Positions 22,729 through 26,562 of a DNA stretch of 64,000 nt are shown here, in pieces. The translations under genes were made by a program, and so were the position numbers. The notes beneath the pieces are model-generated. The model did no database searches. It saw nothing but the letters and a program-made list of their open reading frames with translations, and had not been told where the DNA came from. The stretch lies in NCBI RefSeq assembly GCF_024362485.1, contig NZ_CP101456.1:186001-250000 (forward strand). The letters run 5' to 3'. The number at the start of each line of letters is the position of its first letter. The stretch's first letter is position 1. Origin of the DNA: Natronobeatus ordinarius (lineage in GTDB: Archaea > Halobacteriota > Halobacteria > Halobacteriales > Natrialbaceae).

Positions 22729-24084
22729 TTACTCCTCCTCGAGGAGTCGATCGACCATCTCCTCGGGATCGAACCGCTCGACGTCGTCGTAGCCCTGGCC
22801 GACACCGAGGAACAGAATCGGCTTGCCGGTAACGTGGGCGATCGAGATCGCCGCGCCGCCGTTGGAGTCGGCGTCCGCTTTCGTCAAGATTGCGCCGTCT
22901 ACCTCGATGGCCTCGTTGAACTCCCGGGCGCGGTTGACCGCGTCCTGGCCCGCCACCGCCTCGTCGACGAACAACGTCATGTCGGGGTCGACGACGCGAC
23001 CGATCTTCTCGAGTTGGTCCATCAGCCCCTCGTTCGTGTGGAGTCGCCCCGCCGTGTCCCCGAGGACGACGTCGACGTCGTTGGCCTCGGCGTACTCGAC
23101 GGCGTCGTACAGCACGGCGGCGGGGTCGCCACCCTGCTCGTGGGTGATGAGCTTCGTCCCGAGCGCCTCGGCGTGCTCGCGGATCTGCTCGTTCGCCCCC
23201 GCACGGTAGGTGTCGCCGTTGGCCATCACGGTCGAGTAGCCGCGCTCCTCGAAGTACTGCGAGAGCTTCGCGATCGAGGTCGTCTTGCCGACGCCGTTGA
23301 CGCCGGTGAAGACGATCACCAGGGGTTTGTCCTCGATCGCTACCCGTTCGTCGAAGTCGAACTGACCGACGCTGATCACGTCGTAGATCGCCTCTTTGAG
23401 GGCGTCTTCGACGACCTCGCCCGTCGAGGTGGTAAACGTCCGGGTCTCGCCGATCAGTTCCTCGCGGATGTTGTCGAGGATCTCCTCGGCGACGCTCATC
23501 TCGACGTCACTCGAGAGCAACGCGAGCTCGAGTTCGTGTAACGGTCCCTCGAGGTCGTCTTCCTCGATGACGAACTTCCCGCGGACGAGTGACTTCGCCT
23601 TGTAGCCGAAGCCGAGCGATCGACCCCCGTCCTCGTCGGTGTCGGCGTCTTCGTCGGCGTCCTCGTCGCTGCCGTCGTCGGCCGCCGGCTCGGCTTCCAC
23701 GTCGAGGTCGGGGTCGGCGTCCGAGGGCGACTCGGGCTCGGTCGCGTCGGGCTCCGGCGTCGGCTCGGTCTCTGCGGCGCTCTCGGGCTGCGAGGCGTCC
23801 ATCGCGACCGCCTCGGCCGTCGCCGACGGCTCCTCGACGGGGTCGGTGGCCGCCGGATCGGCCTCGACCGGGTCGCGATCCTCGGTGTCGGCTCGCTCGG
23901 ATGCGGCCGATTCGTGGTCGTCCGCCTCGAGCGTCTCCGTGTCCGCGTCCGCCTCGAGCGTCTCCGCATCGGCGTCCGCAAGCTCCTCGAGTTCCTCCTC
24001 GTCGACGGGTTCGGCCTTCTCTTCAGCCGTCTCCTCGACGTCTTTCCGGAAGCTCCCGAGTTTCTTTTTCAGGCTATCGAACAT
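22729..24084 (-). CDS. ftsY: SRP receptor GTPase FtsY
   Basis: 451 residues. The NG domain has GVNGVGKTTSIAKL, DTAGRLHTNEGL and TKADADSNGGAA. The first ~150 residues form a very acidic Asp/Glu/Ala linker, a haloarchaeal form of the FtsY A domain that touches the membrane. It docks SRP54-ribosome complexes at the membrane. It follows pfdA with a 9-base gap, so the two are probably co-transcribed. Confidence 0.96.
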   Translation of the reverse strand: MFDSLKKKLGSFRKDVEETAEEKAEPVDEEELEELADADAETLEADADTETLEADDHESAASERADTEDRDPVEADPAATDPVEEPSATAEAVAMDASQPESAAETEPTPEPDATEPESPSDADPDLDVEAEPAADDGSDEDADEDADTDEDGGRSLGFGYKAKSLVRGKFVIEEDDLEGPLHELELALLSSDVEMSVAEEILDNIREELIGETRTFTTSTGEVVEDALKEAIYDVISVGQFDFDERVAIEDKPLVIVFTGVNGVGKTTSIAKLSQYFEERGYSTVMANGDTYRAGANEQIREHAEALGTKLITHEQGGDPAAVLYDAVEYAEANDVDVVLGDTAGRLHTNEGLMDQLEKIGRVVDPDMTLFVDEAVAGQDAVNRAREFNEAIEVDGAILTKADADSNGGAAISIAHVTGKPILFLGVGQGYDDVERFDPEEMVDRLLEEE

Positions 24085-24093
24085 GGCACTCCG

Positions 24094-24549
24094 TTACTCG
24101 TCGCGCTCTTGCCCCTGTCCCTGCATTCCCTGCAGTTGCTGCTGGAGTGCTTGCTGCTGGAGCTGCTGGGCCTGGCCCTCGAGCCGGGTACTCTCGGCTT
24201 CGAGTTCGGAGATGCGTTCGGTCACCTCGGCGATGCGGTCGTCGAGCCGGTCGTTTTTCATCTCGAGTGCGGAGACGGCCCCGTCCTGTTCGAACTCCGC
24301 GGCGTAGTCAGCCCCGAGTTCGACGATGACGGCGTCGATGTCCTCGATGGTCGCACGGGCGTACGCCCCGCCCCCGAGGGGGACCTGGACGACCGAGTCC
24401 GTCTCGAGCGTCTCGACGGCGGTGATCGCCTCGTCGACTGCGCGCTGTTCTTCGCGGATGGTTTCGACGACGCCCTGGAGGCTCTCGATGTGACCTTGCA
24501 GCTCCTGAAGTTCCTGGGAGATCGCCTGCAGTTCCTGTTGACCGCTCAT
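24094..24549 (-). CDS. pfdA: Prefoldin subunit alpha
   Basis: 151 residues. The protein is two coiled-coil helices joined by a beta hairpin region (VVQVPLGGGAYARATIED), the standard prefoldin alpha layout, and ends in a Gln-rich tail. Prefoldin hands unfolded proteins to the thermosome. Its ATG overlaps the stop of the short LX-like gene by four bases (ATGA), so translation is coupled. The start MSGQQELQAISQ is clear; the longer open frame upstream is the out-of-frame shadow of that gene. Confidence 0.95.
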   Translation of the reverse strand: MSGQQELQAISQELQELQGHIESLQGVVETIREEQRAVDEAITAVETLETDSVVQVPLGGGAYARATIEDIDAVIVELGADYAAEFEQDGAVSALEMKNDRLDDRIAEVTERISELEAESTRLEGQAQQLQQQALQQQLQGMQGQGQERDE

Positions 24550-24644
24550 GCCTCGACGACCTCCTCGTTCTCGGCGTCGATCGACGGCTCGAGCGCCGCG
24601 TCGCTGTCGCGGTCTTCGAAACCGGTGACGACAAACTGGCTCAT
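24546..24644 (-). pseudogene. rpl18a: Shortened ribosomal protein LX (L18a/eL20-like), 32 residues
   Basis: The frame reads MSQFVVTGFEDRD, then PSIDAENEEVVEA and stops with TGA overlapping pfdA. Haloarchaeal LX proteins sit at this place (before pfdA-ftsY), are about 58 residues long, begin MSQFxVTG and contain a DAxNEDV motif. They then continue with a basic stretch (REH...GSxHGLKRTQI) that is absent here. The simplest reading is an in-frame loss of roughly 25 codons that kept both the start and the stop/start overlap. It may be non-functional, or kept only for coupling to pfdA. The family match rests on synteny and short motifs. Confidence 0.6.
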
Positions 24645-25088
24645 GGTCCATCATCCGTCGGGCAGTCGGAAGAATGTTCCCGTTCGCGTCGGCGCTGTTT
24701 TTCGCCTCCGGCGAACGCTTTGCCGTCAGCGAATCCGACGGCCGGTCACAGCGCGATCGAGTGGTTACTGACTGTTGTCCAGTAGTATCAGGAGGCGTGC
24801 TCGTCGCCAGCGGCCTCGCCGCACCGGTGCTCACCGATAGGTCTACCGGTGGCACGAGATAACCGAACGAGACGAGCGGCGATGGCCGAGTGAACAGCAT
24901 GCAATATTGAGCCACTATTTAATTCGCCATCCGCCTCACGGAAGTCCCCCACGGTCAAATTAAAGGCACCTTTGTGCCGAATAGCCGATAATACACCAGT
25001 ATCCAAATCAACAGCGTTATGTATAGTGTTGTTCAATATTTACAATACTGCCCAACGCTGAACGTTCACGTGGGCAGGACTACGTACA
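24645..25088. other. AT-rich intergenic stretch at the LX breakpoint
   Basis: No gene seen. The first 240 bases are GC-rich. From about 24895 to 25080 the sequence is markedly AT-rich and holds a 10-bp palindrome TGAACGTTCA (25059-25068) close to the start of the 25089 gene. This stretch must supply promoters for both the LX-pfdA-ftsY set and the divergent exported-protein gene. Confidence 0.5.
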
Positions 25089-25571
25089 ATGAATCGAAGG
25101 ACATTCCTCACGAAACTCGGCGTCGGCACCGCCACCGGCGGAGCCGCCCTCGCGACGACGAACGCCGTTGCGGCCGAAACCGACGACGACTATCAGCTCG
25201 AGCTGGAGCCAGGAACGACCGTCTCGTTCGCCGAGACGTATTTCGGCGAATCGTTCATCTACGCGCCGCTTTCCGACGGCAGCACCTACTACCTGTTCCT
25301 GAACCGGAACGGCTGCTGTCAGGTCGACCAGGTTGTCATGGTACTCGCGGATACTGGCGAAGTGCTATACCTCGAGAGTCTCGACGGCGTGCTGTACACC
25401 GTCGACGAGATCGGCGAGATGGCCGACCGGATCGGCGAGATGGCCGATCGAATCGTCTACACCGAGGAACTCATCGTCGAGACGGAGTACCTCATCGTCG
25501 ACGTCATCAAATACACACAGGACAGCACGCTCGAGTTCGTCGACATGCTGAACCCGCTCAGCTACGCGTGA
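25089..25571 (+). CDS. Exported protein with GEMADRI heptad repeats
   Basis: 160 residues. The N-terminus MNRRTFLTKLGVGTATGG with a cut near AVAAE is a twin-arginine signal. The middle is beta-rich with a GCC motif. The C-terminal third is an amphipathic helix with tandem heptads IGEMADR-IGEMADR and then TEELIVETEYLIVDVI, a likely coiled coil or membrane-surface helix. I do not recognise the function. The gene sits on the opposite strand inside what is normally an unbroken eIF6-LX junction in haloarchaea. Confidence 0.75.
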   Translation: MNRRTFLTKLGVGTATGGAALATTNAVAAETDDDYQLELEPGTTVSFAETYFGESFIYAPLSDGSTYYLFLNRNGCCQVDQVVMVLADTGEVLYLESLDGVLYTVDEIGEMADRIGEMADRIVYTEELIVETEYLIVDVIKYTQDSTLEFVDMLNPLSYA

Positions 25572-25619: not shown

Positions 25620-26282
25620 TCAGATGTAGCCCAGCGCGTCCTCGATCCGGCCCAGTTCCGGGCCCGTCGTGTCCTCCCCGACGACGTAGCCCGACTCGTT
25701 GGCGATCAGGCCCGAACCGACGAGTGGCGCGCCGTAGTTGATCGTGCCGACGTCGGCGCGGACGTCGAGGACGTCCTCGAGATGATCGAGTTCGGCGTCG
25801 GTCGCCTTCGGGTGACAGAGCACGCCCGCGTTGGTCGCGACGGCGGCAGTGCCGACCGTGCGAACGCCCGCGAGGTCGCCCCGGTCGACGGGCACCTCGA
25901 GCGTCTCTTTGACGACCTGGATCGCTTCCCGGGTGAGGTCGGAGTGGACGTAGGCCCCGTAGTCGTTCGCGAGGACGACGTTTCCAGCGGCGTTGATACT
26001 GCCCGGGAGTTCGGCGATCGGGAGCTCGACGAGCTCCTCGAGGCGCTCGCGCTCGTAGTCGAGAACACGGCTGCTGACGAGCAGGCCGTTCTCGTTGCCG
26101 GTGGCGAGCGCGCCGACCGTCGAGGCGCCCCCGACGGTCGTCGGATGGACGGGAACCTCGAGTTCGTCCTCGAGTTCGGCGCGCAGGTCGTCGTCGACGT
26201 CGGGCCGGACGAGGGCGCAGTCGTTCGTCGCGCGTGCGAAGACGCCGACGTACGCCGAGCCGGCGAAGGCGGCGCGGAGCAA
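25620..26282 (-). CDS. eif6: Translation initiation factor 6
   Basis: 220 residues of the pentein-fold anti-association factor that binds the large ribosomal subunit. The N-terminus [20 protein letters not shown] is as expected, and five pseudo-repeats with [27 protein letters not shown] and NESGYVVG can be picked out. The start codon is TTG, one base after the stop of rpl31e. A TTG start fits because no ATG or GTG precedes the conserved first residues in this frame. Confidence 0.95.
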
Positions 26283-26283
26283 G

Positions 26284-26562
26284 TTACTCGGCGAATTCGG
26301 CTTCGACGACCGATTCGCCCGCCTCGTCGAAGCGTGCCGCGCGGACGCGGAGCTTCCGTGGTGGGTTCGAGCGGCCGTTCGCCCAGATGGCCTCGTTGAT
26401 CGAGGGGTCGAGCCGGATCGCTCCTTCGTCGACCGCGAAGTGTTTCGCGAGGTGTGCGCGGACGATCGTCATCGCCCGGTCGGCCGCCTCGTGGTTCGCT
26501 CCAGCTTTCACGTCTCGGAGCGGGACCGTGACGACCCGCTCTTCGAAATCACTTGCACTCAT
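26284..26562 (-). CDS. rpl31e: 50S ribosomal protein L31e
   Basis: 92 residues: [15 protein letters not shown] near the start and [20 protein letters not shown] in the middle are diagnostic of eL31. It lies at the exit-tunnel rim of the large subunit. Its ATG shares a base with the stop of rpl39e (TAATG), so the trio rpl39e-rpl31e-eif6 is translationally coupled. Confidence 0.97.

Follow-up and report, generated by a model that had tools for sequence, protein, structure and literature searches.

The window analysed here is a 64,000-nucleotide stretch of the Natronobeatus ordinarius genome (contig NZ_CP101456.1, positions 186,001 to 250,000). It contains a minus-strand group of genes in the order rpl39e, rpl31e, eIF6, a 32-codon ORF that we refer to as the stub, pfdA and ftsY, with a plus-strand ORF encoding a Tat signal lying between eIF6 and the stub. 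The features of this locus, in window coordinates, are as follows.

22729..24084, minus strand: ftsY, SRP receptor GTPase, next gene in the presumed transcript (PF00448, 3.1e-69)
24094..24549, minus strand: pfdA, prefoldin subunit alpha, 151 aa, ATG at 24549 (PF02996, 4.8e-20; TIGR00293, 3.4e-25)
24546..24549, minus strand: 4-nt ATGA overlap of the stub stop and the pfdA start (sequence)
24546..24644, minus strand: the stub, an LX (rpl18a/eL20) remnant and proposed pfdA leader ORF (LX-only HMM, alignment)
24558..24569, minus strand: deletion junction AACGAGGAGGTC (N-E-E-V), where 25 codons are missing relative to LX (alignment with LX-bearing relatives)
24559..24565, minus strand: in-frame Shine-Dalgarno (SD) motif AGGAGGT, 9 nt before the pfdA ATG (sequence)
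24618..24623, minus strand: second in-frame loss, an Arg codon between G8 and F9 (DNA alignment with the LX gene of G010)
24668..24681, minus strand: promoter-like motif GGGAACATTCTTCC (BRE/TATA-like), with the 'A' of ATTCTTCC 31 nt before the stub ATG
25089..25571, plus strand: Tat-signal ORF, 160 aa, inserted between eIF6 and the stub (TIGR01409 match)
25620..26282, minus strand: eIF6 (aIF6), ancestral upstream neighbour of LX (NF003128, 2.6e-120)
26284..26562, minus strand: rpl31e (NF002258, 1.2e-32)

A sequence-only reading of this DNA had placed the stub at an operon break. The break is real, as the Tat-signal ORF parts eIF6 from the stub, but it is a separate event that is common to an LX-bearing relative, G010 (locus L012). 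Since the same ORF in G010 is inserted at the same site and adjoins an intact LX gene, the operon break preceded LX loss and did not cause it. The LX-pfdA pair has its own promoter throughout the Natrialbaceae. The Tat-signal ORF has no Pfam family; copies that are about 80% identical occur on Natribaculum megaplasmids as well as at the G010 site, and a mobile or plasmid-borne spread is suggested for this ORF. In FtsY, at the other end of the locus, the SRP54_N domain is preceded by a very acidic N-terminal stretch of some 150 residues.

Ancestry of the stub and absence of LX

The stub runs from an ATG at 24644 to a TGA ending at 24546 and is translated as MSQFVVTGFEDRDSDAALEPSIDAENEEVVEA. Aligned with ribosomal protein LX (eL20/L18Ae), this product is recognisable as its N-terminal half, with MSQF, TG and IDAENE retained; haloarchaeal LX itself is resolved as chain 6 in the 50S structure 4v9f. 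As an independent test of ancestry we used an LX-only HMM trained on 37 intact Natrialbaceae LX proteins with the stub excluded. The stub scored 34.2 bits, against 8.5 bits for the highest of 1400 shuffled sequences, a resemblance beyond chance. The earlier reading's observation of a small gene that resembles LX at both ends and keeps the overlap with pfdA, which is indeed an ATGA, is confirmed. The alignment with LX that it proposed shows the stub to be LX with in-frame losses, and by BLASTP the stub shares 19 of 30 residues with the LX of a relative (E 5e-11). Common ancestry is thus supported by the N-terminal half together with the synteny before pfdA and the shared start site. While the stub resembles LX (L18Ae/eL20, PF01775) in these respects and in its pfdA overlap, it differs in the absence of 25 residues that include the conserved C-terminal block, GSxHxxKRT, and it escapes both the Pfam and NCBIfam models. 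Specifically, it does not reach the curated PF01775 cut-off of 22.9 bits and gives no match to that model even at E<=10.

The earlier estimate of about 25 missing residues agrees with the alignment, which puts the loss at 25, covering the AREH helix together with the GSxHGLKRT block and IELE, and adds an Arg codon that followed TG. The recognisable N-terminal half, with its retained motifs, might be taken to mean that the 32-residue protein still binds the ribosome as a reduced LX. We regard this as very improbable, given that the GSxHxxKRT block and the helix are lost, that related stubs are free to diverge, and that 3 of 12 near-invariant N-terminal positions are changed in addition to the Arg deletion, whereas intact LX breaks none or one. 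That so few positions are broken is at the same time consistent with recent loss of LX. The stub has probably ceased to encode a ribosomal protein.

The search for a full-length rpl18a elsewhere, as the earlier reading proposed, covered the whole N. ordinarius genome (4,208,668 bases in 2 contigs, 99% complete). No full LX was found with PF01775 at E<=10, a model that detects intact LX of family members at about 1e-11 to 1e-16. A Natrialbaceae LX profile returned the stub, a match by construction as the profile included the stub, and a single 15-bit chance match. The latter sits in an unrelated protein, which looks like a member of the OsmC family, and relocation of LX is therefore rejected with both the Pfam and the family profile. 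The N. ordinarius ribosome very probably lacks LX, and the suggestion that this lineage tolerates the loss of a ribosomal protein is upheld by both searches.

At the DNA level, comparison with LX of G010 shows one 25-codon block and one Arg codon to be missing, both in frame. In LX-bearing relatives the missing segment lies between two imperfect in-frame repeats, AACGAGGACGTC and CTCGAGGAGGTC, which agree with each other in as many as 9 of 12 bases (mean 7.3, background 3.6). The 25-codon loss probably arose by recombination between these imperfect direct repeats; a deletion between AACGAGGACGTC and CTCGAGGAGGTC would give exactly the junction AACGAGGAGGTC and would spare the reading frame, the SD motif and the ATGA. 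Such a repeat-mediated origin would also explain why N. ordinarius (G000) and G017, which are apart on the tree, have the same kind of stub, the one in G017 being nearly identical to that of N. ordinarius and probably derived from an independent deletion. An assembly artefact is unlikely, given this near-identical stub and the many other genomes that carry short ORFs in this position.

These observations also bear on the reading that the stub is a passive relic, in which LX was deleted recently and what remains has no role. Repeats of this kind would make an in-frame deletion easy, G017 appears to have undergone nearly the same one, and both the frame and the ATGA are inherited. As the ATGA frame is ancestral, a young in-frame deletion retains the overlap for free. 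What speaks against this reading comes from older losses in other genomes.

Fate of the LX locus across haloarchaea

We compared 125 Natrialbaceae genomes and 293 genomes of the order Halobacteriales (at least 90% complete), of which 82 and 216, respectively, pass the PF01775 cut-off. The 78 Natrialbaceae loci comprise 37 with LX, 28 with a stub, a frameshifted LX or a diverged ORF, and 13 with no ORF. All 28 of the stub, frameshifted or diverged ORFs overlap the start of pfdA by 4 or 1 nt, and in all 13 loci that have no ORF it is the ATG of pfdA itself that lies at +31. Outside the Natrialbaceae, where classes were assigned by script plus inspection, the 53 LX-less genomes comprise 24 with leaderless pfdA, 28 with an overlapping ORF of 12-25 aa and one exception. 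Altogether, among 94 genomes with absent or eroded LX, the pfdA ATG stands at the promoter in 37, an overlapping ORF precedes pfdA in 56 and one departs from both arrangements. This exception (G058, locus L048, family f11) has no promoter motif; its pfdA begins about 36 nt after eIF6 at a different start and fits neither class.

LX has been lost or eroded in about a dozen Natrialbaceae groups and in several other haloarchaeal families, counts that are approximate as they rest on a FastTree phylogeny of eIF6, pfdA, ftsY and L31e with weakly supported deep nodes. Four GTDB genera (g3, g8, g18 and g28) each include genomes with intact LX alongside others in which it is lost or eroded. The earlier reading had considered such a loss unusual. 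This does not hold, as the Halobacteriales have repeatedly lost LX and ended up with either a coupling ORF or a leaderless pfdA.

Many degrees of erosion are represented. For example, G003 and G007 have only an N-terminal trace of LX, while the short ORFs of g12, g6, G015 and G026 contain no recognisable LX sequence; such unrelated short ORFs before pfdA are 12-33 aa in length. Nothing at all lies between the promoter and pfdA in g2, in eight of nine g3 genomes and in four Natrialba. In three other Natrialba genomes (G100, G101 and G104) LX is frameshifted; at loci L085, L086 and L089 of this genus the frameshift follows GYAA and the frame stays open for 62 codons, through a run of Thr codons, with ATGA and SD restored before pfdA. 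Full-length or near-full-length degraded LX is present in five g28 genomes and two g18 genomes, where 6-11 of 22 near-invariant LX positions are broken as compared to 0-3 in intact LX. The g28 loci (L043, L045 and L078-L080) are full length with changes such as GSxH to ESRC and a pN/pS of 0.59; this LX is possibly in mid-decay or has moved to another role. A separate peculiarity is seen in prefoldin alpha of f12, f6 and f17 (e.g. L226, L225 and L211), which has a poly-glycine start, MSLGGGGGG or MMGGG, that is absent in the Natrialbaceae.

Promoter, Shine-Dalgarno motif and reading frame

A motif of the form GGGAA[G/C]ATTCTTCC, with few changes, lies upstream in 78 of 78 Natrialbaceae loci, and in every one the first ATG is exactly 31 nt past the 'A' of ATTCTTCC. 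This first ATG belongs to LX wherever LX is intact. Also invariant relative to it at all 78 loci are AA at -34/-33, TCTTCC from -29 to -24, A at -10 and a pyrimidine at -1, the last being found before the internal pfdA ATG in just 3 of 65 cases. Leaderless promoters of Haloferax have a BRE at -34/-33, a TATA element from -29 to -25, WW near -10 and a pyrimidine at -1 (PMC3986360). The Natrialbaceae LX/pfdA promoter matches this published signature, with BRE, TATA, -10 and -1 pyrimidine elements all at a fixed distance from the ATG. Outside the Natrialbaceae the promoter-to-ATG spacing is 30-34 nt. The extended motif has one perfect match in the N. ordinarius genome, located at the stub promoter. 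The element is moreover near-palindromic (GGAAGGGAA[G/C]ATTCTTCC, 24668-24685, minus strand), is kept at all Natrialbaceae LX/pfdA loci examined and, in the form ATACTTCC, occurs in further families of haloarchaea; a dedicated regulator could recognise it.

SD motifs just before the pfdA start were scored as matches to AGGAGGTGATCC with a threshold of at least 5 nt. Among Natrialbaceae genomes this threshold is reached in 36 of 37 with LX, 17 of 18 with stubs and all 3 with frameshifted LX. It is reached in none of 7 with diverged ORFs, all of which have 4 nt, and in none of 13 with leaderless pfdA. Weak SD motifs of about 4 nt characterise most of f17, G026 and the diverged g28 and g18 ORFs, a point against the coupling model set out below.

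Selection on the short ORFs was assessed from relatives, as the genus of the window is represented by one genome in the set. Short-ORF pN/pS is 0.91 in g6, 1.03 in g12, 0.94 in f6, 1.32 in f14 and 1.35 in f17, while in the same comparisons pfdA gives 0.17-0.35 and intact LX 0.05-0.34. With values near 1 in five groups, the residues of the short ORFs are not conserved. This bears on the idea that the stub is a regulatory leader peptide that senses an amino acid, an antibiotic or the state of the ribosome in the manner of an attenuator. A short translated leader ahead of an operon has that form, but the peptides are wholly different between genera and evolve at the near-neutral rates just given. 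The relatives' short ORFs also show none of the attenuator hallmarks looked for (shared regulatory codon repeats, an arrest motif or a conserved peptide), and we find this explanation scarcely credible.

The reading frame behaves differently from the residues. With substitutions counted along minimum spanning trees, the short and frameshifted ORFs would be expected to have 7.9 nonsense changes under no constraint but have none (P about 4e-4); furthermore, length differences among the short ORFs are all multiples of three. The chance of the observed overlap, from shuffled interiors and a random frame, is 0.03-0.31 per short-ORF lineage, with a product over nine lineages on the order of 1e-7 that presumes independence and disregards the ancestral ATGA frame. 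For these two reasons we give the nonsense test more weight than the overlap product. By these comparative measures the reading frame of the short ORFs is conserved and their residues are neutral.

It is these older ORFs that make a passive relic unlikely in our view. Those of g6, g12, f6, f14 and f17 are without any LX sequence and nonetheless keep the start position, the stop overlap and the frame; nonsense and frame-changing differences are absent from them; and where the ORF is gone, pfdA occupies +31 and is never found behind an untranslated leader. We infer that selection, beyond inertia, keeps the stub in N. ordinarius as well.

Proposed ribosome delivery to pfdA and related systems

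In E. coli, the final 15 nt of an upstream gene is enough for coupling. In Haloferax volcanii, nine of nine overlapping or near-abutting gene pairs are strictly coupled, with an early stop in the upstream gene abolishing downstream translation, and an SD motif starts no de novo translation (PMC6728339). Additionally, about 20 nt between stop and start nearly abolishes coupling in Haloferax (PMC10666635). Because of these results, a haloarchaeal gene behind a leaderless promoter would have two routes to translation, either its own first ATG or coupling to an ORF that carries one. The LX locus shows both routes and almost nothing else, and we therefore propose that the stub serves as a leader ORF from which ribosomes pass to pfdA. 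Both features of coupled pairs are present, an ATGA-type overlap (of 4 or 1 nt wherever a stub occurs) and an SD motif, AGGAGGT, inside the upstream ORF.

We consider it very likely that LX decayed to a leader ORF whose ribosomes reach pfdA through termination-reinitiation. According to this model, the LX gene decayed through in-frame deletions and no longer codes for a ribosomal protein. Transcription would start at or within one base of the stub ATG to give a leaderless mRNA. A ribosome would then initiate at this ATG, read 32 codons through the internal SD, terminate where the TGA and the pfdA ATG overlap, and presumably reinitiate on pfdA. The 32 codons would persist since pfdA, and perhaps ftsY too, are translated through them, with the peptide sequence itself under no selection. 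The suggestion in the sequence-only reading that a stub is kept for coupling thereby gains support, mainly from the overlap, neutral residues and kept frame of the relatives, with coupling itself extrapolated from Haloferax.

More broadly, it seems likely that across the Halobacteriales the LX gene repeatedly dies as a protein gene and survives as an amino-acid-neutral ORF for ribosome delivery, as a haloarchaeal gene behind a leaderless promoter needs either the first ATG or coupling; as part of the same claim, the LX locus would constitute a natural experiment in which two outcomes are allowed and hardly any other occurs. Our verdict is that the gene decay is ordinary and its outcome unusual as well as very regular, namely the conversion of a ribosomal protein gene into a translation launcher, many times over. 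If true, this provides a clear path from a protein gene to a purely translational element, as well as comparative evidence from some 90 genomes against internal or post-leader ribosome entry at the LX/pfdA operon. A ribosomal protein that is present in most archaea would be dispensable many times over, and ORFs of 12-33 codons before pfdA are likely to be dropped or misnamed by annotation pipelines.

Loss of the same protein has precedent, as the portion of Yutin et al. (2012, PMC3353972) consulted here places L18ae in 78 of 87 archaeal genomes with several probable independent losses. Unlike the present analysis, that portion makes no mention of stubs, promoter spacing or coupling ORFs. A search of open-access papers turned up LX loss (PMC3353972) and the idea of short ORFs that deliver ribosomes (PMC12548453), and no report on the LX-stub locus. 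A functional parallel comes from Haloferax volcanii, where coupling by termination-reinitiation (Huber et al. 2019, PMC6728339; 2023, PMC10666635) likewise involves an ATGA overlap and an intragenic SD in a haloarchaeal host. Both partners of those pairs are functional genes, whereas the LX stub has lost its protein role and apparently keeps coupling alone. In mycobacteria, short leaderless upstream ORFs have also been proposed to deliver ribosomes, and MIRU ORFs couple at -4 nt (reviewed in PMC12548453). The LX stub shares with these a short ORF that is proposed to hand over ribosomes, but it is archaeal and arose through the repeated decay of a ribosomal protein gene.
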